Made by a program: the position numbers and the translations under genes
NCBI GenBank assembly: GCA_037439705.1
Contig: JBBIVP010000058.1
Coordinates: 1 to 10,978 of the forward strand
DNA from: JBBIVP01 sp037439705 [NCBI: bacterium]
GTDB taxonomy: Bacteria > JBBIVP01
Length of the DNA: 10,978 nt
Direction: 5' to 3'
Part shown: positions 1,529 through 8,218 of the stretch, piece by piece
Layout of the letters: each line of letters opens with the position of its first letter
Numbering within the stretch: the stretch's first letter is position 1
Notes under the pieces: generated by a model
Told to the model about the DNA's origin: nothing
The model's input: the letters and a program-made list of their open reading frames with translations, nothing else
The model's database searches: none

Positions 1529-2758
1529 ATGCTAAAATTTTTAAAGATGGATAAAAATTTCATAAGGGTAAGGCAAAAGGTTCCGAAGGTTGAGCCAATA
1601 AGAGATGTTGAAAAGGTTCTGAGAGAAAAAATAAGGAAAATAGCCTTTCCTTCTCTTTCCGGAAAACGAGTTGCTATATGTGTGCCGAGCAGAAAGATTG
1701 TAAAACTTGATGAAATAGTGAGAATTGCTGGAGAAGAAATTAAAAGAATGGGAGGACGCCCTTTCATTGCTCCAGCAATGGGCAGTCATGCTGGAGGGAC
1801 TGCTCAGAACCAGATAGAACATCTCAAGAAAATGGGAATAGGAGAAGAAACAACCGGACTTGAAATTTTTTCAACAGATGAAACCATTAAAGTTTTTGAA
1901 AAAGGCAGAAAATTTATCTTTGAAAAAAATGTGTATGAGAGCGACTACATCTTCCTCATAAACAGGATAAGACCGCATACCGCCTTTGAGGCGGATTTCG
2001 GAAGCGGCCTTATGAAACTTTCAGCTGTAGGACTCGGTAAGGGAGAAGGAGCATGGTATGCCCACCGTTATGGACTCAAGAAGTACATTCCCCTTGCCTT
2101 TAACCATCTTCTTAAGAAGGGAAAAATTCTGGGAGGAATTGGAATTGTTGAGTCTTATAAAGGAGATATATGCAAACTGGAAGTTTTGCACACAAAAAAT
2201 ATTGTGAGTGGAGAAAAAAAACTTTTTTCTTTTTCAAAAAAAATTCTTCTTAAACTTCCCTTTTATCCAGTTGATATTTTGATAGTAAGGGAAATGGGAA
2301 AGGACATAAGCGGAACAGGTCTTGATACAAATGTGATAGGGATGGAAAGGAGAAGGGGAGAAGGAAAAAAGGTGAAATGCGTAGTCGCCTTAAACCTAAG
2401 TCCAGATTCCTTTGGAAATCTCTACGGAGTAGGATTTGCGGATGTAATAACGGAGAAAATAATAACAAATGCAGACTGGGGGGTTACATACAAAAATGCC
2501 TTTTCCACAGTATGCCTTCAGGCAGTAAAAATCCCGATAGTTGCTCCTGATGATGAAATGGCGATAAACTTTGCATACAATTTTTTAAAAACAAAAAATC
2601 CTGCGGTGATAATTGTGGAAAGCACAGGAAAGCTTGAGTACCTCCTTTTAAATGAGAAGGTACTTAAAATGACAAGAGGAAAAGTTTCCGTTGTTGAATC
2701 TGGAATTTCCCTTTCCTTTGATAACCAGAAAAACCTCGTTACAAAGCCATACCCTTGA
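1529..2758 (+). CDS. LarA-type (lactate racemase domain, DUF2088) protein
   Basis: This 409-aa protein resembles the nickel-dependent lactate racemase family (LarA, PF09861). LarA enzymes interconvert 2-hydroxyacid stereoisomers using a nickel-pincer nucleotide. Recognisable motifs are PAMGSHAGGTA (82-92), RIRPHTAFEADFGSG (146-160), LMKLSAVGLGKGEGAWYAH (161-179) and MGKDISGTGLDTNVIG (256-271). By position, H87, H150, K163 and H179 line up with the LarA catalytic and nickel or cofactor-binding residues. The Lys-to-His spacing of 16 equals that of LarA K184/H200, while the His-to-Lys spacing of 13 is longer than the LarA value of 10. The family also contains racemases and epimerases of other 2-hydroxyacids, so the substrate is unknown. 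An ATG at 1547 is an alternative start. The stop overlaps the TTG start of pgpA. Confidence 0.8.
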   Translation: MLKFLKMDKNFIRVRQKVPKVEPIRDVEKVLREKIRKIAFPSLSGKRVAICVPSRKIVKLDEIVRIAGEEIKRMGGRPFIAPAMGSHAGGTAQNQIEHLKKMGIGEETTGLEIFSTDETIKVFEKGRKFIFEKNVYESDYIFLINRIRPHTAFEADFGSGLMKLSAVGLGKGEGAWYAHRYGLKKYIPLAFNHLLKKGKILGGIGIVESYKGDICKLEVLHTKNIVSGEKKLFSFSKKILLKLPFYPVDILIVREMGKDISGTGLDTNVIGMERRRGEGKKVKCVVALNLSPDSFGNLYGVGFADVITEKIITNADWGVTYKNAFSTVCLQAVKIPIVAPDDEMAINFAYNFLKTKNPAVIIVESTGKLEYLLLNEKVLKMTRGKVSVVESGISLSFDNQKNLVTKPYP

Positions 2759-3210
2759 AGGAAAAGGTAATAAAACTTCTTTCTACAGGGTTTTTTACAG
2801 GATACATTCCATACGCTCCAGGAACCTTCGGAACACTTCTTGGAATTCCTGTTCTTTATCTTCTCAAAAAAATCCCCCTTTATTTTTCTCTCGCTTTTAT
2901 TTTAGGTTTTTCAATTTTTTCAGTTTTTTTAGCAGGTCATGCAAAAAAGATATATAACAGTTCTGACCCGAAATGCGTGGTTATAGATGAAATTGTAGGA
3001 TACCTTTATGCGAGCATCTTTTTCCCTTTTAATTTAAAATTTCTCGTCCTTTCTTTTTTGTTCTTCAGGTTCTTTGACATCCTGAAACCATACCCCATAA
3101 AAAAATCGGAGCTTCTAAATAAAGGCTGGGGAATTGTTCTTGACGATATAATTTCAGGAGTATTCTCCGCGTTCGTTCTTTTTATTATGAGTGTCATCTT
3201 AAAATTTTAA
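2755..3210 (+). CDS. pgpA: Phosphatidylglycerophosphatase A
   Basis: PgpA removes the phosphate from phosphatidylglycerophosphate to give phosphatidylglycerol, at the inner membrane. All family hallmarks are present in a normal-length 151-aa protein: APGTFGT (21-27), DPKCVVIDEIVG (71-82), FRFFDILKP (104-112) and GWGIVLDDIISG (124-135). The acidic residues in the last three blocks are those expected to hold Mg2+. Hydrophobic segments at about 28-60, 84-107 and 134-149 fit a membrane protein. The start is TTG at 2755, which shares bases with the TGA of the LarA-like gene, so translation probably depends on the upstream gene. It is the last gene of that two-gene operon. Confidence 0.92.
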   Translation: MKEKVIKLLSTGFFTGYIPYAPGTFGTLLGIPVLYLLKKIPLYFSLAFILGFSIFSVFLAGHAKKIYNSSDPKCVVIDEIVGYLYASIFFPFNLKFLVLSFLFFRFFDILKPYPIKKSELLNKGWGIVLDDIISGVFSAFVLFIMSVILKF

Positions 3211-3326: not shown

Positions 3327-3710
3327 ATGCAATTTATGAAACTGGAAGAAATTAGAAGAATTCTCAATGCAGAAGTGATAGCGGGAAAGGACTTAATGGA
3401 TAAGGAAATTGAGTATGCCTGTGGTTCTGACCTGATGTCAGATGTGCTTGCATTTGCAAAACCCGGTGCACTTGTTCTAACAGGACTTACCAATGTTCAA
3501 AGCGTTAGAACCGCCTATATTGTTGACATCAAAGCAATTGTCTATGTGAGAGGAAAACAGCCTGAAGAGGATGCAATAAAACTGGCAATTGAAAAGGGAA
3601 TTCCTTTGCTTTCCACAAGCTTGAGGATGTTTGAAGCCTGTGGAAAACTTTATAAAGCAGGACTTCGTGGTATAGGGGAGGTAGAAGAAAAAGTTGCGGC
3701 AAATAAATAA
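3327..3710 (+). CDS. DRTGG-domain protein, first copy
   Basis: A 127-aa stand-alone DRTGG domain (PF07085). The family pattern is seen in the N-terminal MKLEEIRRILNAEV stretch, the SDLMSDVLAFAKPGALVLTG block (34-53) and the VQSVRTAYIVDIKAIVYVRGK strand-helix-strand (57-77). It ends with the helix IEKGIPLLSTSLRMFEACGKLY. DRTGG domains occur next to CBS domains and in phosphotransacetylase-like and [FeFe]-hydrogenase loci; their biochemical role is not settled. No catalytic motif is visible. ATG 3327 has only a weak AAAAAGA upstream. ATG 3336 (giving MKLEEI, as in the second copy, MKLGEI) is a fair alternative start. It opens the six-gene operon and overlaps the next gene by 17 bases. Confidence 0.83.
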   Translation: MQFMKLEEIRRILNAEVIAGKDLMDKEIEYACGSDLMSDVLAFAKPGALVLTGLTNVQSVRTAYIVDIKAIVYVRGKQPEEDAIKLAIEKGIPLLSTSLRMFEACGKLYKAGLRGIGEVEEKVAANK

Positions 3711-4164
3711 TGAAGAAAAAAATTTGAAACCCCCACTTCTGGAGAGGGAATTTGAGGTGGAGGGAGGAAATTTTGCAAATGCAGGGGTTGTCTCGGGAAA
3801 GGTAAAGGAGGTTTTAAAAAGTATTGGGTTCGGTCCCGAAGCAGTAAGAAGGATTGCCATCTGTAGCTATGAAGCAGAGGTAAATATCGTTCTATATGCC
3901 AGAAGAGGGGTGATGAAACTCTCAGTTTATGAGGATTACGCTGTCCTCCACATAAAGGACGAAGGTCCTGGAATTGAAGACATAGAACTGGCCATGCAGG
4001 AAGGATATTCTACAGCAACACCCGAAATGAGGGAACTCGGATTCGGTGCAGGCATGGGTTTACCAAATATTAAAAAGAACTCCGACATTTTCACCATAAT
4101 TTCCGAACCTGGAAAAGGGACAGAATTGAGAATATTAATAAGAAATGCAAGAGAACCAATCTGA
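3694..4164 (+). CDS. RsbW-like ATP-binding protein (HATPase_c)
   Basis: A 156-aa GHKL ATPase of the anti-sigma factor/serine kinase kind. The N-box is YEAEVN (59-64), the G1 box KDEGPG (88-93), the G2 region GFGAGMGLPNIKK (116-128) and the final G3 block PGKGTEL (139-145). There is no dimerisation/histidine phospho-acceptor region, so it is not a sensor histidine kinase. Proteins like this either phosphorylate a partner protein on Ser/Thr or bind and release one in a nucleotide-dependent way. The start is TTG at 3694, inside the end of the DRTGG gene, with GGAGG at 3677-3681 at a rather long 12-base spacing. TTG 3724 is an alternative that removes ten residues. The end overlaps the Fe-S gene by 20 bases. 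Confidence 0.85.
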   Translation: MRQINNEEKNLKPPLLEREFEVEGGNFANAGVVSGKVKEVLKSIGFGPEAVRRIAICSYEAEVNIVLYARRGVMKLSVYEDYAVLHIKDEGPGIEDIELAMQEGYSTATPEMRELGFGAGMGLPNIKKNSDIFTIISEPGKGTELRILIRNAREPI

Positions 4165-5437
4165 ACCCCTTCAAACCATAACTATAATTTCAGAGTTATG
4201 CACAGGATGCATGAAATGTGTTCGTGGATGTCCTGTGGAGGCGATGAGGTTCAAGGAAAGAATTCCTTTTGTCAAGTGGGAAAGGTGCATCCATTGCGGA
4301 GAATGTATAAAAGCATGTGATGCAATTCAACCCCTTACAACTTCTTTTTTTGAACTTTCAAAATTCAAATATACCATAGCAATTCCCTCTCCTGCATTTG
4401 TTGCCCAGTTTGAAAGACATATAGGACCTGCACATACATTTTCTGCCCTGAAATTTCTGGGGTTCAACGATGTTTTGAACATAGCTCCTTTCTGCTCTGC
4501 TTATTTTAAGGCAATAAAAATTTTTATTGAAAACCAGAAGATACCAAAACCTGTAATCTCTTCCATCTGTCCGGTGGTAATAAGTTTGATACAGAGGAAG
4601 TATCCCTCTTTAATTGAACATCTCCTTCCAATAACTCCACCGAGACAGCTGGCAGCAAAACTTGCGGTTGAATCCCTTATCAAAAATGGAACATTTAAAA
4701 TGGAAGAAATAGGAGCAATATATATCACACCGTGCATTTCAAAGATGATAGAAATAAATGAAACAGACGATGGAAATTATATCCATGGTGCAATTGCAAT
4801 AAGGCATATATACAATGAGAGCCTGAAGAGGATAAAACCGACGGAGAAGATGGATATAGGAAAATCCGTTTATGGGTTCAGACAGGCAATCGCAGGAGGA
4901 CTTTCTGAGATAATTGGTGAAGAGAATGTGCTTGTGGTTTCTGGAATAAAAAATCTTAAAAAGGCTATGGATGATATAGAGATGGGTAAAATGAGAAGGA
5001 TTCCATTTGTGGATGCCTATGCATGTGCGGAAGGGTGTATTGGAGGAACACTTACAGTGGAAGACCTTTACATAGCAAGACAGAAAATCCTTTCTCTTTT
5101 CCATGAAAGGGACGAAGAAGATGAAGAACTCGTTGAGATATATTTGAAAACGAAATTTGACCCTGTTGAAAGATGGGCAAAGAAGCCAAAATATAGAAAA
5201 CCTGTGTCCGCGGGTATAAAATTTGTTGTAATGAAAGAAGGGATTTTGAAAAACCTTCCCGGGATTGATTGCGGATTGTGCGGTGCACCTACCTGCGAGG
5301 CATTTGCTGAAGACATCCTTGAAGGTGAGGTAAAAGAAGAAGAGTGTATTTTTAATATATTGAGAAATGAAGAAATAAAGGTCGAGGAATTCCTTTCAAG
5401 GTGGAAAAGAAAAGGAGGCAAAAATGAAGCTGGGTGA
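4145..5437 (+). CDS. [FeFe]-hydrogenase-like Fe-S protein, probably sensory
   Basis: A 430-aa protein with three parts. (a) A 2x[4Fe-4S] ferredoxin domain with C19/C22/C25/C29 and C48/C51/C54/C58. (b) A hydrogenase large-subunit C-terminal domain, about 75-315. (c) A C-terminal 4Fe-4S domain of the PF04060 type with C376/C379/C384/C401 (IDCGLCGAPTC). The three H-cluster motifs are present in altered form: SSICP (139-143) for TSCCP, TPCISKMIE (195-203) for MPCxxKxxE, and DAYACAEGCIGG (290-301) for ExMACxGGCxxGG. The four cubane ligands C142, C197, C294 and C298 remain, but the proton-transfer Cys is I141. This resembles putative sensory (group C/D) enzymes more than catalytic HydA. There is no PAS domain, which some sensory relatives have. 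It overlaps both neighbours. Confidence 0.88.
   Translation: MQENQSEPLQTITIISELCTGCMKCVRGCPVEAMRFKERIPFVKWERCIHCGECIKACDAIQPLTTSFFELSKFKYTIAIPSPAFVAQFERHIGPAHTFSALKFLGFNDVLNIAPFCSAYFKAIKIFIENQKIPKPVISSICPVVISLIQRKYPSLIEHLLPITPPRQLAAKLAVESLIKNGTFKMEEIGAIYITPCISKMIEINETDDGNYIHGAIAIRHIYNESLKRIKPTEKMDIGKSVYGFRQAIAGGLSEIIGEENVLVVSGIKNLKKAMDDIEMGKMRRIPFVDAYACAEGCIGGTLTVEDLYIARQKILSLFHERDEEDEELVEIYLKTKFDPVERWAKKPKYRKPVSAGIKFVVMKEGILKNLPGIDCGLCGAPTCEAFAEDILEGEVKEEECIFNILRNEEIKVEEFLSRWKRKGGKNEAG
5413..5418 (+). promoter_or_regulatory. Strong ribosome binding site for the second DRTGG gene
   Basis: A perfect AGGAGG lies five bases before ATG 5424, inside the end of the Fe-S gene. It fixes the start of the second DRTGG protein. 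It is the only strong Shine-Dalgarno in the operon, so this gene may be made in higher amount than its neighbours. Confidence 0.85.
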
Positions 5438-5762
5438 AATAATAAAAATGCTTTCCCTAAAGGAAGAAACAGCAGGGAAAGCCAATTTGGAGAAAGATGT
5501 GAAACTTGCTTATGTGAGCGACCTCTTAAGCGATGTAATTGCGAATGCAAAAAACGGGTGTTTATGGATTACCCTTCAGTCCCATCCAAACATAGTTGCT
5601 GTGGGAGCAATGAAGGAGGTTTCAGGGATAATAATAGTAAACGGAAGACATCCCGATGGAGAAATGATAAAGAAGGCTAACGAAGAGGGGGTTCCTATAT
5701 TTACAACTGAAAAAAGCGCTTTTACTGTAGCAGGGCTTTTGTATCAGGCTGGAATAAGGTGA
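5424..5762 (+). CDS. DRTGG-domain protein, second copy
   Basis: A 112-aa paralogue of the DRTGG protein at 3327. Shared landmarks are the MKLGEI opening, SDLLSDVIANAKNGCLWITL (32-51, against SDLMSDVLAFAKPGALVLTG in copy 1), the strand VSGIIIVNGRHPDG (66-79) and ANEEGVPIFTTEKSAFTVAG with its final helix. The two copies are clearly diverged, so this is not a recent duplication. No catalytic residues are evident; a regulatory or ligand-binding role in the hydrogenase-like module is inferred from context. Its stop overlaps the GTG start of the PHP gene (GTGA). Confidence 0.84.
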   Translation: MKLGEIIKMLSLKEETAGKANLEKDVKLAYVSDLLSDVIANAKNGCLWITLQSHPNIVAVGAMKEVSGIIIVNGRHPDGEMIKKANEEGVPIFTTEKSAFTVAGLLYQAGIR

Positions 5763-6493
5763 GGGGTTTTAAGGGGGACTTACACATTCACACATGCCTT
5801 TCTCCATGCGCAGACCTTGAGATGAGCCCATTGAAGGTCATCCGTAAGGCGGTGGAGAAAGGGCTTGATATAATAGCAATATGCGACCACAATTCTGCGA
5901 AAAATACTCCATACGCCTTTAACCTCTCTAAAAAATTTCCGATTGTGGTTCTCCCTGGAATTGAGGTAAATTCCATAGAAGAGGTTCACATACTTTCTAT
6001 TTTTGATACGCCTGAAAAAGCCTTACTCTTTCAAAAATATGTTTATGATGGGATTAAAGGGAAAAATGACGAAGACCTCTTCGGAATTCAGGCAGTGGTA
6101 AATGAGTTTGATGAGGTTGAGGAAATAGAAGATAGACTTCTCATCTCTGCCTCAAGTATGAGCGTTGAAGAAATCGTTGAAAAAACCCATTCCCTTGATG
6201 GCATAGCAATCGCTTCCCACATTGACAGGGAGGCTTACAGCATAATCGGAAAACTCGGATTTATTCCTCCCAGCCTTTCACTTGACGGAATAGAAATCTC
6301 AAAAACCGGCTCACCGAAGCACATTCCGGAGGGATTCACCGCAATTTCTTCATCGGATGCTCACAGACTTGAAGAAATAGGGGAAGTCTGGACAATTTTT
6401 TATACTGATACTCCTGACCTGAAAGGCATAAAGAAAGCACTGGAAACGGGCAGGGTAAAAATTCATGGAAGAAATTTCCCTTCACATCCTTGA
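5759..6493 (+). CDS. PHP-domain metal-dependent phosphoesterase
   Basis: A 244-aa PHP protein with the complete metal-binding set: DLHIHTCLS (H9, H11), ICDHN (D43, H44), GIEVNS (E69), VHILSIFDT (H77), ASHIDRE (H154) and SSSDAHR (D200, H202). Stand-alone PHP proteins of this kind hydrolyse phosphoesters such as nucleotides or short RNA ends with two or three metal ions; the substrate here cannot be told from sequence. A negatively charged insert (EDLFGIQAVVNEFDEVEEIED, about 105-125) replaces a loop between strands. The GTG start at 5759 shares bases with the preceding TGA. Its position between a DRTGG gene and an ATPase suggests hydrolysis of a signalling phosphate, which is inference. The end overlaps the next gene by 29 bases. 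Confidence 0.9.
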   Translation: MRGFKGDLHIHTCLSPCADLEMSPLKVIRKAVEKGLDIIAICDHNSAKNTPYAFNLSKKFPIVVLPGIEVNSIEEVHILSIFDTPEKALLFQKYVYDGIKGKNDEDLFGIQAVVNEFDEVEEIEDRLLISASSMSVEEIVEKTHSLDGIAIASHIDREAYSIIGKLGFIPPSLSLDGIEISKTGSPKHIPEGFTAISSSDAHRLEEIGEVWTIFYTDTPDLKGIKKALETGRVKIHGRNFPSHP

Positions 6494-6959
6494 CCTCGTT
6501 GAAAATTCAATTTCCGCAGGAGCCACAAAAATTGAAATAGTTGTTGAGGAGGATTTAAAAAAAGATATTCTAAAAATTGTCGTAAAAGACAACGGAAGAG
6601 GGATGAGCAAAGAAGAAATAAAGAAAATTTTTGACCCGTTTTTCACAACAAAAGGAAAAAGAACAGGTCTTGGATTGCCTTTTATAAAACAGGCAGCAGA
6701 GGCTACCGGAGGAAAGGTGAAGGTAAGGAGTAAAGAGGGAAAGGGCACAAGCGTGGAGGCAATCTTCATCCATTCCCACATAGACCGTCAGCCCATCGGG
6801 GAGATCGGCACAACAATAGCCACACTTTTTCTTTCCCATCCAGAAATAGAGTTCATTTACAAACATATTAAGGATAATAAAAAGATGAAAATTTCAAACA
6901 GGAAAAATTTTTCCTTTAATGAGATAAGGGAAAGAATAAGAGCGTTCTTGAAGGATTAA
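6465..6959 (+). CDS. Kinase-type HATPase protein lacking a phospho-acceptor domain
   Basis: A 164-aa protein that begins almost directly with a histidine-kinase-type ATPase domain. The N-box is DLVENSISAGA (10-20), G1 is KDNGRGM (41-47), the F-box is FDPFFTTKG (56-64), G2 is RTGLGLPF (66-73) and the last block is KEGKGTSV (90-97). No HisKA helices precede it. Residues 102-135 form a conserved-looking tail (SHIDRQPIGEIGTTIATL) that I associate with this small ATPase family in hydrogenase neighbourhoods, followed by a basic helical end. It differs from the RsbW-like ATPase at 3694, so the operon has two separate ATPase types. AGGG at 6452-6455 could serve as the Shine-Dalgarno. It is the last gene of the operon, and I see no terminator after it. 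Confidence 0.85.
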   Translation: MEEISLHILDLVENSISAGATKIEIVVEEDLKKDILKIVVKDNGRGMSKEEIKKIFDPFFTTKGKRTGLGLPFIKQAAEATGGKVKVRSKEGKGTSVEAIFIHSHIDRQPIGEIGTTIATLFLSHPEIEFIYKHIKDNKKMKISNRKNFSFNEIRERIRAFLKD

Positions 6960-6976
6960 GGACTCCAGATTCTCAT

Positions 6977-7205
6977 TTAAAAATTCCAGACCAAATCCAC
7001 CTGCACCAACTTCTCTTTCCCATCGCCCTTGATTTCCTTCATGTGATAATAATCCAATCCCAAAGCGAAATTTTTTCCCAGACCAAATTTAAGTTCTGCT
7101 TCATGACCTTTTACAGCTGAATATATCCCATCAGAGCATCAGCGCCATCCTCTACCTCCTTCAACATCCATACTCCCGTATTAGCACACCAAGCCTGAAT
7201 CCTGT
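6977..7205 (-). pseudogene. Frameshifted C-terminal remnant of a porin-like outer-membrane beta-barrel
   Basis: The 6960-7321 gap has no intact gene. On the minus strand, bases 7132-6977 translate without a stop as 51 residues: DGIYSAVKGHEAELKFG, then LGKNFALGLDYYH and KEKLVQVDLVWNF before TAA. This has the alternating pattern and terminal aromatic (F) of an outer-membrane barrel end, including the late strand order Gh-E-elk-G-nfalgldYYh. Just upstream, in another frame, come WMLKEVEDGADA (7170-7135) and then, in the first frame again, GFRLGVLIREYG. These look like the preceding strands of the same protein broken by at least one indel near 7133 and a second near 7172. The rest of the gene is missing. 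It is probably inactive debris; a sequencing error could explain one shift but not the missing body. Confidence 0.55.
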
Positions 7206-7269
7206 TAATGTTAATACTTAACTGAAAAATTAAAACCGGGTATGGGTGTGCGTGGAGAAAATATGGTTG

Positions 7270-7299
7270 TTGAAAATCAATAAACTGATAAAATATATT
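7270..7299 (+). promoter_or_regulatory. Promoter of the radical SAM gene
   Basis: TTGAAA (7270-7275), an 18-base spacer and TATATT (7294-7299) match the sigma-70 consensus at 5/6 in each hexamer. The expected start of transcription near 7306 would leave a leader of about 16 bases before ATG 7322. The region between the porin remnant and this promoter holds nothing else I can identify. Confidence 0.5.
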
Positions 7300-7321
7300 C
7301 TGTGCAGTTGAAAGAATAAAA

Positions 7322-8218
7322 ATGAGGTATAATTCCTTTTCATCGCATTTAAAAAGGGTTTTCGGAACAAAGGTAAAAAGGATTTCTGTTGATGCAGGAT
7401 TTACCTGCCCAAACAGAGATGGCAAAAAGGGATTCGGGGGCTGCGTTTATTGCAACAACTTAGCATTTACAGGAAAAACCGCTGATAGAAGATTAACTGT
7501 AGAGCAGCAGGTCAGAAATGCAATAAGGAATAGGGATGAACTCTTTCTTGTTTATTTTCAGCCCTACACAAATACCTATTCCTCTCCATCTTTTCTTGAG
7601 AAACTCTTCACGGATGTCCTTAAAATAAAAAATGTTGTTGGAATAGCAATAGGAACAAGACCTGATTGTATGGATGAAGATGTACTGAAGGTTATTGAAA
7701 AATTAAACAAACTTACATACCTCTGGGTTGAACTCGGGCTTCAGAGCGCTTCAGACATAACCCTTGAACTCATAAACAGAGGTCATACGGTGAAAGATTT
7801 TGTGGATTGTGTTGAAAAATTAAAAAAGTTAGGTGTAAGAACCTGCGCCCACATAATAATAGGATTGCCTCAAGAAACCCATGAAGATTTTTTAAAAACC
7901 GGTTCCCTTCTTTCAGAATTGCGCGTAGAAGGTGTAAAATTTCATAACATTCAGGTTTTGAAGGACACAAAGTTAGAAGAGATTTATAAAGCCGGTCAGT
8001 TTGAACCAATCGGGATGGAAGAATATGTAAAGGCAGTTGTTGAAATTCTTGAGATTTTGCCAGAGACAACGGTAATCCATCGTTTAGCAGGAGAAGCAGA
8101 CCCGAAGTATCTCATCACCCCAGAATGGGCTTTTTCAAAATGGAAAATCCTCTCAGAGATAAGAAAAGAACTCGAAAAAAGAGATACCTGGCAGGGAAAG
8201 AGATTTAATTCCTACTGA
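7322..8218 (+). CDS. yhcC: TIGR01212-family radical SAM protein (YhcC/YtqA)
   Basis: A 298-aa radical SAM enzyme. The cluster motif is the family-specific CX11CX2C (C29, C41, C44) in FTCPNRDGKKGFGGCVYCNN, not the usual CX3CX2C. Further marks are FQPYTNTY, IGTRPDCM, WVELGLQSASD and HIIIGLPQET, along the TIM-barrel, with a C-terminal WQGKRFNSY. The length is normal for the family. The B. subtilis member YtqA (MnmL) has been linked to conversion of the cmnm5 to the nm5 tRNA wobble-uridine side chain; whether that holds here is not shown by sequence. ATG 7322 has a weak GAAAGA upstream. It stands alone on the plus strand, with its own promoter. Confidence 0.9.
   Translation: MRYNSFSSHLKRVFGTKVKRISVDAGFTCPNRDGKKGFGGCVYCNNLAFTGKTADRRLTVEQQVRNAIRNRDELFLVYFQPYTNTYSSPSFLEKLFTDVLKIKNVVGIAIGTRPDCMDEDVLKVIEKLNKLTYLWVELGLQSASDITLELINRGHTVKDFVDCVEKLKKLGVRTCAHIIIGLPQETHEDFLKTGSLLSELRVEGVKFHNIQVLKDTKLEEIYKAGQFEPIGMEEYVKAVVEILEILPETTVIHRLAGEADPKYLITPEWAFSKWKILSEIRKELEKRDTWQGKRFNSY

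Follow-up and report, generated by a model that had tools for sequence, protein, structure and literature searches.

A six-gene module around a group D-type [FeFe]-hydrogenase-like protein: a candidate Fe-S redox sensor and kinase system for electron-bifurcating enzymes

Two N-terminal 4Fe-4S motifs, an H-domain, and a C-terminal Cx2Cx4Cx16C motif characterize the M2e or group D class of sensory [FeFe] hydrogenases (PMC6984386, PMC13104023). TamHydS of Thermoanaerobacter mathranii (group D/M2e) has this architecture without a PAS domain, a Ser/Thr at the M353 slot, and an adjoining gene for a histidine-kinase-like ATPase (PMC8163306, PMC10407848, PMC13104023). Group D sensors encoded beside hydABC have been described (PMC8163306), and a 2026 paper on TamHydS calls the identification of interaction partners critical (PMC13104023). 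The group C sensory [FeFe] hydrogenase TmHydS has a proposed sensory role and a C-terminal FeS cluster, and carries a PAS domain (PMC13104023). Nar1/NARF proteins are hydrogenase-like, with cubane sites and no [2Fe]H (PMC12621388). The Bfu family of bifurcating enzymes (HydABC, StnABC, and Nfn-Bfu) combines a BfuBC (HydBC) core with exchangeable A subunits (PMC9304861, PMC10482914); in NiFe-type Bfu enzymes a [4Fe-4S] cluster replaces the H cluster (PMC9304861). The subject of this study is a six-gene module in a 10,978-nucleotide stretch of bacterial DNA (contig JBBIVP010000058.1; the whole stretch is hereafter called the window), whose third gene encodes a group D-type [FeFe]-hydrogenase-like protein, HydS. 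The initial annotation of the window had proposed that the module may be an independent signaling unit built around an H-cluster-like or Fe-S sensor.

We favor, with moderate confidence, the reading that the module is an Fe-S redox sensor plus kinase system for bifurcating enzymes, and that it contains no H-cluster. HydS descends from the group D sensory [FeFe] hydrogenases and shares the features of TamHydS listed above; unlike TamHydS, the clade to which it belongs has a changed diiron pocket and proton relay, most of its hosts lack HydE, HydF, and HydG, and the neighboring genes do not encode hydrogenases. The clade resembles Nar1/NARF in being hydrogenase-like and in retaining, as we infer, cubane sites without [2Fe]H. 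Nar1 is a eukaryotic cluster-assembly factor, whereas the window HydS is bacterial, is encoded in a kinase/phosphoesterase gene cluster, and falls within group D in the tree. The Bfu arrangement of a HydBC core with exchangeable A subunits recurs in the genes beside the module at other loci, but the module is not itself part of a Bfu enzyme and no HydB/HydC core was found in the window. With TmHydS the window HydS shares the proposed sensory role and the C-terminal FeS cluster; a group C PAS-type sensor was ruled out, because HydS has no PAS domain and lies on a separate side of the tree.

All six open reading frames (ORFs) lie on the + strand between positions 3327 and 6959, in the order D1 (DRTGG), SpoIIAB/RsbW-like ATPase, HydS, D2 (DRTGG), PHP, and HATPase (HAT) (Table 1). 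When the first start codons were used, the junctions overlapped by 17, 20, 14, 4, and 29 bases; these lengths depend on start choice, gene 2 beginning with a TTG that is followed by another TTG 30 bases later and gene 5 beginning with a GTG. The ATG of gene 4 is preceded by AGGAGG. Pfam matches over the gathering cut-offs were obtained for every gene: DRTGG in genes 1 (33.1 bits) and 4 (31.0 bits), HATPase_c_2/HATPase_c in gene 2 (30.6/29.3 bits), Fe_hyd_lg_C (89.6 bits) together with Fer4 and FeS (PF04060) in gene 3, PHP/PHP_C in gene 5, and HATPase_c (79 bits) in gene 6. The coordinates, the domain names, and the overlap at every junction given in the initial annotation were thus confirmed, and the identity of the module is firm. 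The annotation was also right that HydB and HydC subunits are not visible, as the HydA, HydB, and HydC profiles had no match anywhere in the window.

The group D (M2e) architecture is complete in HydS: N-terminal 2x[4Fe-4S], H-domain, and C-terminal Cx2Cx4Cx16C, with no PAS domain. The four cysteine ligands of the H-domain cubane (C142, C197, C294, and C298) are present, and all four cysteines of the first N-terminal motif are kept. The HydS model (predicted local distance difference test score 89.9) has the [FeFe]-hydrogenase fold, with a Z score of 32.9 and a root-mean-square deviation of 2.8 Å over 339 residues to 8zqd_A. Elsewhere, in the HydS proteins of L006, L007, L008, L012, L015, L087, L091, L095, L096, L101, L102, and L138, the second Cys of the first N-terminal motif is replaced by Arg, His, Lys, or Asp (for example, CxGRMxC); judged from sequence, these 12 proteins may have a 3Fe cluster, or one with unusual ligands, at the first N-terminal site.

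A tree of 137 HydS rows placed the window in a clade of 50 rows, called X, with a Shimodaira-Hasegawa-like approximate likelihood-ratio support of 95 by a quick method. Clade X is a sub-clade of the group D side, which comprises 121 rows, including L055 from Thermoanaerobacter wiegelii, at support 100; the other 71 group D rows are called R. Before the tree was made, second copies of loci (L086, L090, L100, and L127) and fragments (L137 and L142) were left out. The outgroup consisted of 13 matches of 107–123 bits (L103–L115) and L003–L005, longer relatives that fall outside group D. One of the latter, L003 (Acetoanaerobium noterae), is on a 2.6 Mb record listed as a plasmid, and in our reading of its ORF the C-terminal part of the HydS-like protein is methyl-accepting-chemotaxis-like. 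When five long rows (L091, L002, L102, L003, and L061) were dropped in a second tree, clade X contained 47 rows at support 100.

Direct mapping of positions was possible because L055 agrees with TamHydS at all the numbered positions that were checked. The cubane cysteines are retained in clade X (C142, C197, and C298 in 50/50 rows and C294 in 48/50), as are those of the C-terminal FeS motif (50/50), and it is the surroundings of the diiron site that have changed. At the position of CpI C299 and TamHydS A137, 65/71 R rows have Ala, whereas 48/50 X rows have Thr, Phe, Ser, Val, Tyr, Met, Ile, or His; the window has Ile. Position 82 of the window HydS is Ser in 44/50 X rows and Ala in 65/71 R rows, and at position 84, 48/71 R rows have Ser or Thr and 3/50 X rows have Thr; we take these two positions to correspond to CpI A230 and S232. 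The CxGGC motif retains its first Gly in 66/71 R rows but in only 3/50 X rows. At the TamHydS E252 position the proton-relay Glu is kept in 68/71 R and 28/50 X rows, at the D265 position Asp is found in 66/71 R rows and 1/50 X rows, and at the E289 position Glu is found in 48/50 X rows. None of these three group D proton-relay residues, which are named for TamHydS in PMC10407848, is present in the window, where the corresponding residues are L253, S266, and D290. When five pocket marks were scored, all 50 X rows had 0–2 (the window, 0) and 68/71 R rows had 3–5. A catalytic hydrogenase was ruled out by the changed proton relay and pocket, together with the lack of an adjoining HydBC in the window.

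The maturases HydE, HydF, and HydG were each sought in the host genomes, with Thermotoga maritima as a positive control that matched every time. All three were absent in 38 of the 47 X hosts with a tree row. They were also absent in G643 and G662, which contain HydS fragments with an X-type pocket and enter only the count of 40 maturase-less hosts. Six of these 40 (G646, G647, G656, G657, G658, and G659) are essentially single-contig, the first contig equaling the genome to 0.1 Mb. HydS was the only Fe_hyd_lg_C match in 37/40; among the others, G662 had a second, weak match in a short frame, and G143 had a second hydrogenase-domain protein of 129 bits. These results did not support the H2 sensing of the initial annotation. 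The absence of all three maturases differed between X (38/47) and R hosts (21/69) with a Fisher p of 8e-8, for rows that are related and drafts that are incomplete; for the same reasons we rejected this absence as a clean statistical proof. R hosts such as G064 and G069 (loci L064 and L069) have intact H-cluster motifs in HydA although HydE, HydF, and HydG were not found; these are probably incomplete drafts. The tree neighbors of L069, L037 and L072, were also without the three maturases.

The gene set recurs. A first scan, with one genome per species, covered the best 80 of 491 relatives, a sample that leans toward the window; wider sampling in the phyla of L006 (Aminicenantes), L010 (Ignavibacteriales), and L013 (Stahlbacteria) gave matches in 12/149, 17/345, and 27/147 genomes, respectively. 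The neighborhood check proposed with the initial annotation showed co-conservation: the six families occurred in the same order, other genes being ignored, in 31/39 flanked loci of clade X and 36/54 of R. This recurrence rules out a chance cluster of ORFs. Among the 106 loci with at least 1.5 kb upstream, the RsbW-like gene was the nearest profiled gene before hydS in 105 (41/41 X and 64/65 R), where "nearest" refers to the profiled families and an unprofiled gene may intervene, as in L001. By ORF limits the two genes are at most 100 bases apart in 113 of the 118 loci that have both; at L029 no RsbW-like gene was found in reach. In many loci D1-RsbW-HydS-D2-PHP is followed or faced by hydC, HAT, a gene for a small 2Fe-2S protein, hydB, and hydA. 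Locus L001 (Subdoligranulum) has five of the six genes, divergent from hydC-HAT-2Fe2S-hydB-hydA. At L002 (Parabacteroides distasonis, from the plasmid collection) the same six genes stand alone with unrelated genes on either side; its first gene, annotated "hypothetical," served as a seed of the D1 profile. No relative was found when viral contigs were searched with HydS.

For the neighboring genes, counts cover loci flanked by 5 kb or more on each side (36/48 X and 43/70 R, hereafter well-flanked) and a distance of up to 9 kb; G100, which has two modules, was counted twice. No HydA with hydrogenase motifs was found within 9 kb at any of the 48 X loci examined, and thus at none of the 36 well-flanked ones. 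Ten X loci of the first scan, among the best 80 of the 491 relatives, contain a HydA-like ORF, none of which has an L2 or L3 H-cluster motif. HydB-type genes lie beside 33/36 well-flanked X loci, and the A modules of these 33 are HdrA (12), NAD(P)H/GltD-type (13), NAD(P)H plus molybdopterin (7), and unassigned (1); the A slot is of the GltD/NAD(P)H type in L024 and of the molybdopterin type in L062. The three X loci with no hydB in reach are L002, L152 (which keeps the 2Fe-2S gene), and L161 (which keeps hydC). The 43 well-flanked R loci comprise 27 with a motif-bearing HydA, four with HydB but no such HydA in view, and 12 with no HydB-type or A-type gene. The families therefore do not occur only next to catalytic hydABC; had they done so, with a hydABC operon displaced by rearrangement in the genome, the independent module of the initial annotation would by its own account have failed. 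The claim of independence was only half right: the module is alone in the window, but HydBC-type genes accompany most X loci.

The solitary position may reflect no more than a partner encoded at another site in the genome. The essentially single-contig genome G657 has its module, which retains hydC, at 1.14 Mb; at 2.16 Mb it has a hydB fusion that shares 74% identity with the fusion adjoining the G646 module. This separation of about 1 Mb makes a solitary module in the window compatible with a partner elsewhere. Fusions of hydB to a GltD/NAD(P)H-type domain of approximately 430 residues were found at L147 (13023–16199) and L149 (11577–14657), both of the Stahlbacteria phylum, and at L163 (11678–14764); the A subunit beside them is short and NuoG-like in L147 and L149 and HdrA-type in L163. 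The A slot of L006 (13611–15380) encodes a NuoG-like N-terminus fused to an HdrA domain, with 424 bits to 8rvv_A and 467 bits to HdrA2. A NuoG-like/HdrA A slot beside HydBC was also seen in L007, L008, L009, L012, L015, L017, L163–L166, and L172–L174, the assignment being checked by Pfam, PDB, or NCBIfam for L006, L017, L163, and L172. Such operons possibly contain two bifurcation sites. In the accessible portion of PMC9304861, no named Bfu type with an HdrA-fused A subunit was found.

The proteins encoded around HydS are of a signaling type. SpoIIAB is both the closest structure to the RsbW-like model and its best sequence match in the PDB. Glu60 at the SpoIIAB Glu46 position and the N-box Asn64 are invariant in 117 relatives, and we take these residues to have the catalytic-position Glu and N-box Asn roles of SpoIIAB. 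Against the NCBIfam anti-sigma F model the protein scored 43 bits (cut-off 135). Unlike the systems of the SpoIIAB/RsbW anti-sigma kinases, the six genes include no recognizable sigma factor or STAS gene, and the partner appears to be HydS. In the PHP protein, residues H9, H11, D43, H44, E69, H77, H154, D200, and H202, presumably metal ligands, are intact. D1 and D2 had no match at E 0.1 in a PDB sequence search. The suggestion of a conserved signaling-type unit was upheld, the module encoding, besides the Fe-S protein, two ATPases of the GHKL type and a PHP phosphoesterase with its metal-ligand residues intact. The Glu at the E46 position, the SpoIIAB fold, and the PHP ligands together suggest phosphotransfer.

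From these comparisons we infer the cofactor content of the window's own HydS, its signal, the phosphotransfer, and the target. That clade X is free of the H-cluster we hold with fairly high confidence; its HydS proteins most likely contain no diiron H-cluster, their cofactors being confined to Fe-S cubanes: a pair at the N-terminus, the [4Fe-4S] of the H-domain, and a single one at the C-terminus. On balance we lean toward the six genes being the regulatory half of a locus that elsewhere accompanies HydBC-type electron-bifurcating enzymes. In the proposed mechanism, electrons from the ferredoxin/NAD(P)H pool would set the redox state of the HydS cubanes, and a change in the shape of HydS would be passed to the SpoIIAB-like kinase encoded directly upstream. 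This kinase and the second ATPase would phosphorylate or sequester a partner, perhaps at the invariant Ser of the DRTGG proteins (D1 Ser38 and D2 Ser36), and the PHP enzyme would remove the phosphate and reset the system. The output would tune how much of a bifurcating complex is made or how active it is, the complex being encoded beyond the window or at another place in the genome. To a broader proposal we give even chances: that one phylum-spanning lineage of "sensory [FeFe] hydrogenases" lost its H-cluster and now serves, paired with a SpoIIAB-type kinase, as a redox sensor containing only Fe-S clusters, regulating bifurcating transhydrogenase, HdrA-type, and formate-type enzymes in bacteria without any [FeFe] hydrogenase. 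The group D signal in general would then be the ferredoxin/NAD(P)H state and not H2.

Several observations weigh against this reading. No HydBC was found in the 3.3 kb of the window that precede the module or in the 4.0 kb that follow it. Maturases are present in 9/47 X hosts (those of L011, L017, L024, L062, L094/L098, L096, L097, L138, and L139; the L011 host has two of the three), and G406, a maturase-less X host, has a second, strong hydrogenase-domain protein of 292 bits. The 21/69 R hosts that lack all three maturases serve as a control, and such hosts account for 7/32 of the R loci that have a motif-bearing HydA, which indicates that draft genomes lose genes. The R rows L014, L038, and L059 score only 1–2 pocket marks, and HydE, HydF, and HydG all occur in the host of L038. 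The Lys of the CpI K358 slot and the Thr of the M353 slot are each kept in 46/50 X rows, so that, on sequence grounds, some room for a diiron site may remain in clade X. Finally, because the tree shows a single pocket change, it offers no independent pairs on which a link between this change and maturase loss could be tested.

Among the alternatives, a system that assembles or repairs the Fe-S or flavin centers of HydBC-type enzymes, with HydS as a Nar1-like cluster carrier and chaperone-like ATPases, survives best, and we consider it unlikely. Nar1 is itself hydrogenase-like with two 4Fe-4S sites and no [2Fe]H, and cluster trafficking has been proposed for it (PMC12621388); the module also accompanies multi-cluster bifurcating enzymes of several kinds and not one substrate. 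However, the RsbW-like Glu conserved in 117 relatives, the SpoIIAB-like fold, and the PHP metal ligands suggest phosphotransfer, and a HydB-type gene is missing within 9 kb of 12/43 R and 3/36 X well-flanked loci. A true H2 sensor, with a full H-cluster as in TamHydS and reporting H2 to the two ATPases for the control of hydrogenases encoded elsewhere, is quite improbable. The architecture is that of group D HydS, and TamHydS is catalytically active and accepts a synthetic diiron cofactor (PMC6984386, PMC8163306); the window HydS has the four cubane ligands and the K358-slot Lys, and nine X hosts have maturases. Set against these points are the absence of HydE, HydF, and HydG from 38/47 X hosts, including six essentially single-contig genomes, the altered residues in the window (L, D, and S at the E252, E289, and D265 positions, respectively, and Ile at the A137 position), and the lack of an adjoining catalytic HydA at all 36 well-flanked X loci. 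An independent signaling system with no tie to electron bifurcation, its neighborhood elsewhere being incidental, would fit the solitary modules of the window, of Parabacteroides L002, and of 12/43 well-flanked R loci, but is very improbable given HydB-type genes near 33/36 X and 31/43 R well-flanked loci and the homolog of its relatives' hydB fusion about 1 Mb from the G657 module.

An Fe-S redox sensor and kinase module would bear on what group D HydS senses and with whom it communicates. The RsbW-like kinase encoded just upstream (105/106 loci) is the first partner candidate for HydS, and clade X provides natural relatives in which hydrogen chemistry is probably gone and the signaling genes are retained. 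If this is true, H2 binding is dispensable for the signaling function, some "sensory hydrogenases" may sense no hydrogen at all, and for clade X the counting of HydS genes in metagenomes is unsafe as evidence of hydrogen metabolism. The retention of a hydrogenase-like protein after loss of [2Fe]H has a parallel in Nar1 (PMC12621388). In the literature accessible to us we found no paper on the six-gene set, which a 2010 survey of clostridial hydrogenases (cited in PMC8924675) or subscription papers may contain, and none on group D proteins in maturase-less hosts.

Table 1. Genes of the module and sequence features of HydS, in window coordinates
Feature	Position	Strand	Remarks
D1, DRTGG-domain protein, 127 aa	3327..3710	+	Ser38 and Asp35 unchanged throughout 111 aligned relatives, gaps disregarded
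RsbW/SpoIIAB-like ATPase, 156 aa	3694..4164	+	E60 (SpoIIAB E46 position) and N64 unchanged throughout 117 aligned relatives, gaps disregarded
HydS, group D-type [FeFe]-hydrogenase-like protein, 430 aa	4145..5437	+	
First N-terminal 4Fe-4S motif of HydS, C19 C22 C25 C29	4199..4231	+	
Second N-terminal 4Fe-4S motif of HydS, C48 C51 C54 C58	4286..4318	+	
H-domain of HydS (Fe_hyd_lg_C), residues 75-301	4367..5047	+	Pfam
L1 motif of HydS: cubane ligand C142 kept; I141 at CpI C299/TamHydS A137 position	4559..4573	+	
L2 motif of HydS: C197 (cubane ligand) and K200 (CpI K358 slot) kept; T195 at M353 slot	4727..4744	+	
L253 of HydS, replacing group D proton-relay Glu (TamHydS E252)	4901..4903	+	Residue named in PMC10407848
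L3 motif of HydS: C294 and C298 (cubane ligands) kept; E296 replaces Gly	5024..5038	+	
C-terminal FeS motif Cx2Cx4Cx16C of HydS, C376 C379 C384 C401	5270..5347	+	Motif per PMC6984386
D2, second DRTGG-domain protein, 112 aa	5424..5762	+	Ser36 and Thr50 unchanged throughout 106 aligned relatives, gaps disregarded
PHP-domain phosphoesterase, 244 aa	5759..6493	+	H9 H11 D43 H44 E69 H77 H154 D200 H202 kept
HAT, free-standing HATPase_c protein, 164 aa	6465..6959	+	Other domains not found

The module is flanked by pgpA (2755–3210) upstream and mnmL (7322–8218) downstream. Between the last module gene and mnmL, at 6960–7321 on the - strand, is what we read as a frame-shifted gene remnant whose end resembles the C-terminus of an outer-membrane beta-barrel; its open 45 residues had no Pfam match. 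The remnant occupies the place where relatives carry hydC and hydB/hydA genes. A tRNA scan of the window found none, and scans for consensus promoters and terminators gave no more sites than in shuffled sequences. Positions 1–460 on the - strand encode a PilZ-domain protein (c-di-GMP binding family; Pfam E 7e-11). Upstream of pgpA, positions 1529–2758 encode a relative of nickel-pincer-cofactor-dependent isomerase family group 22, with 353 bits, below the cut-off of 400.

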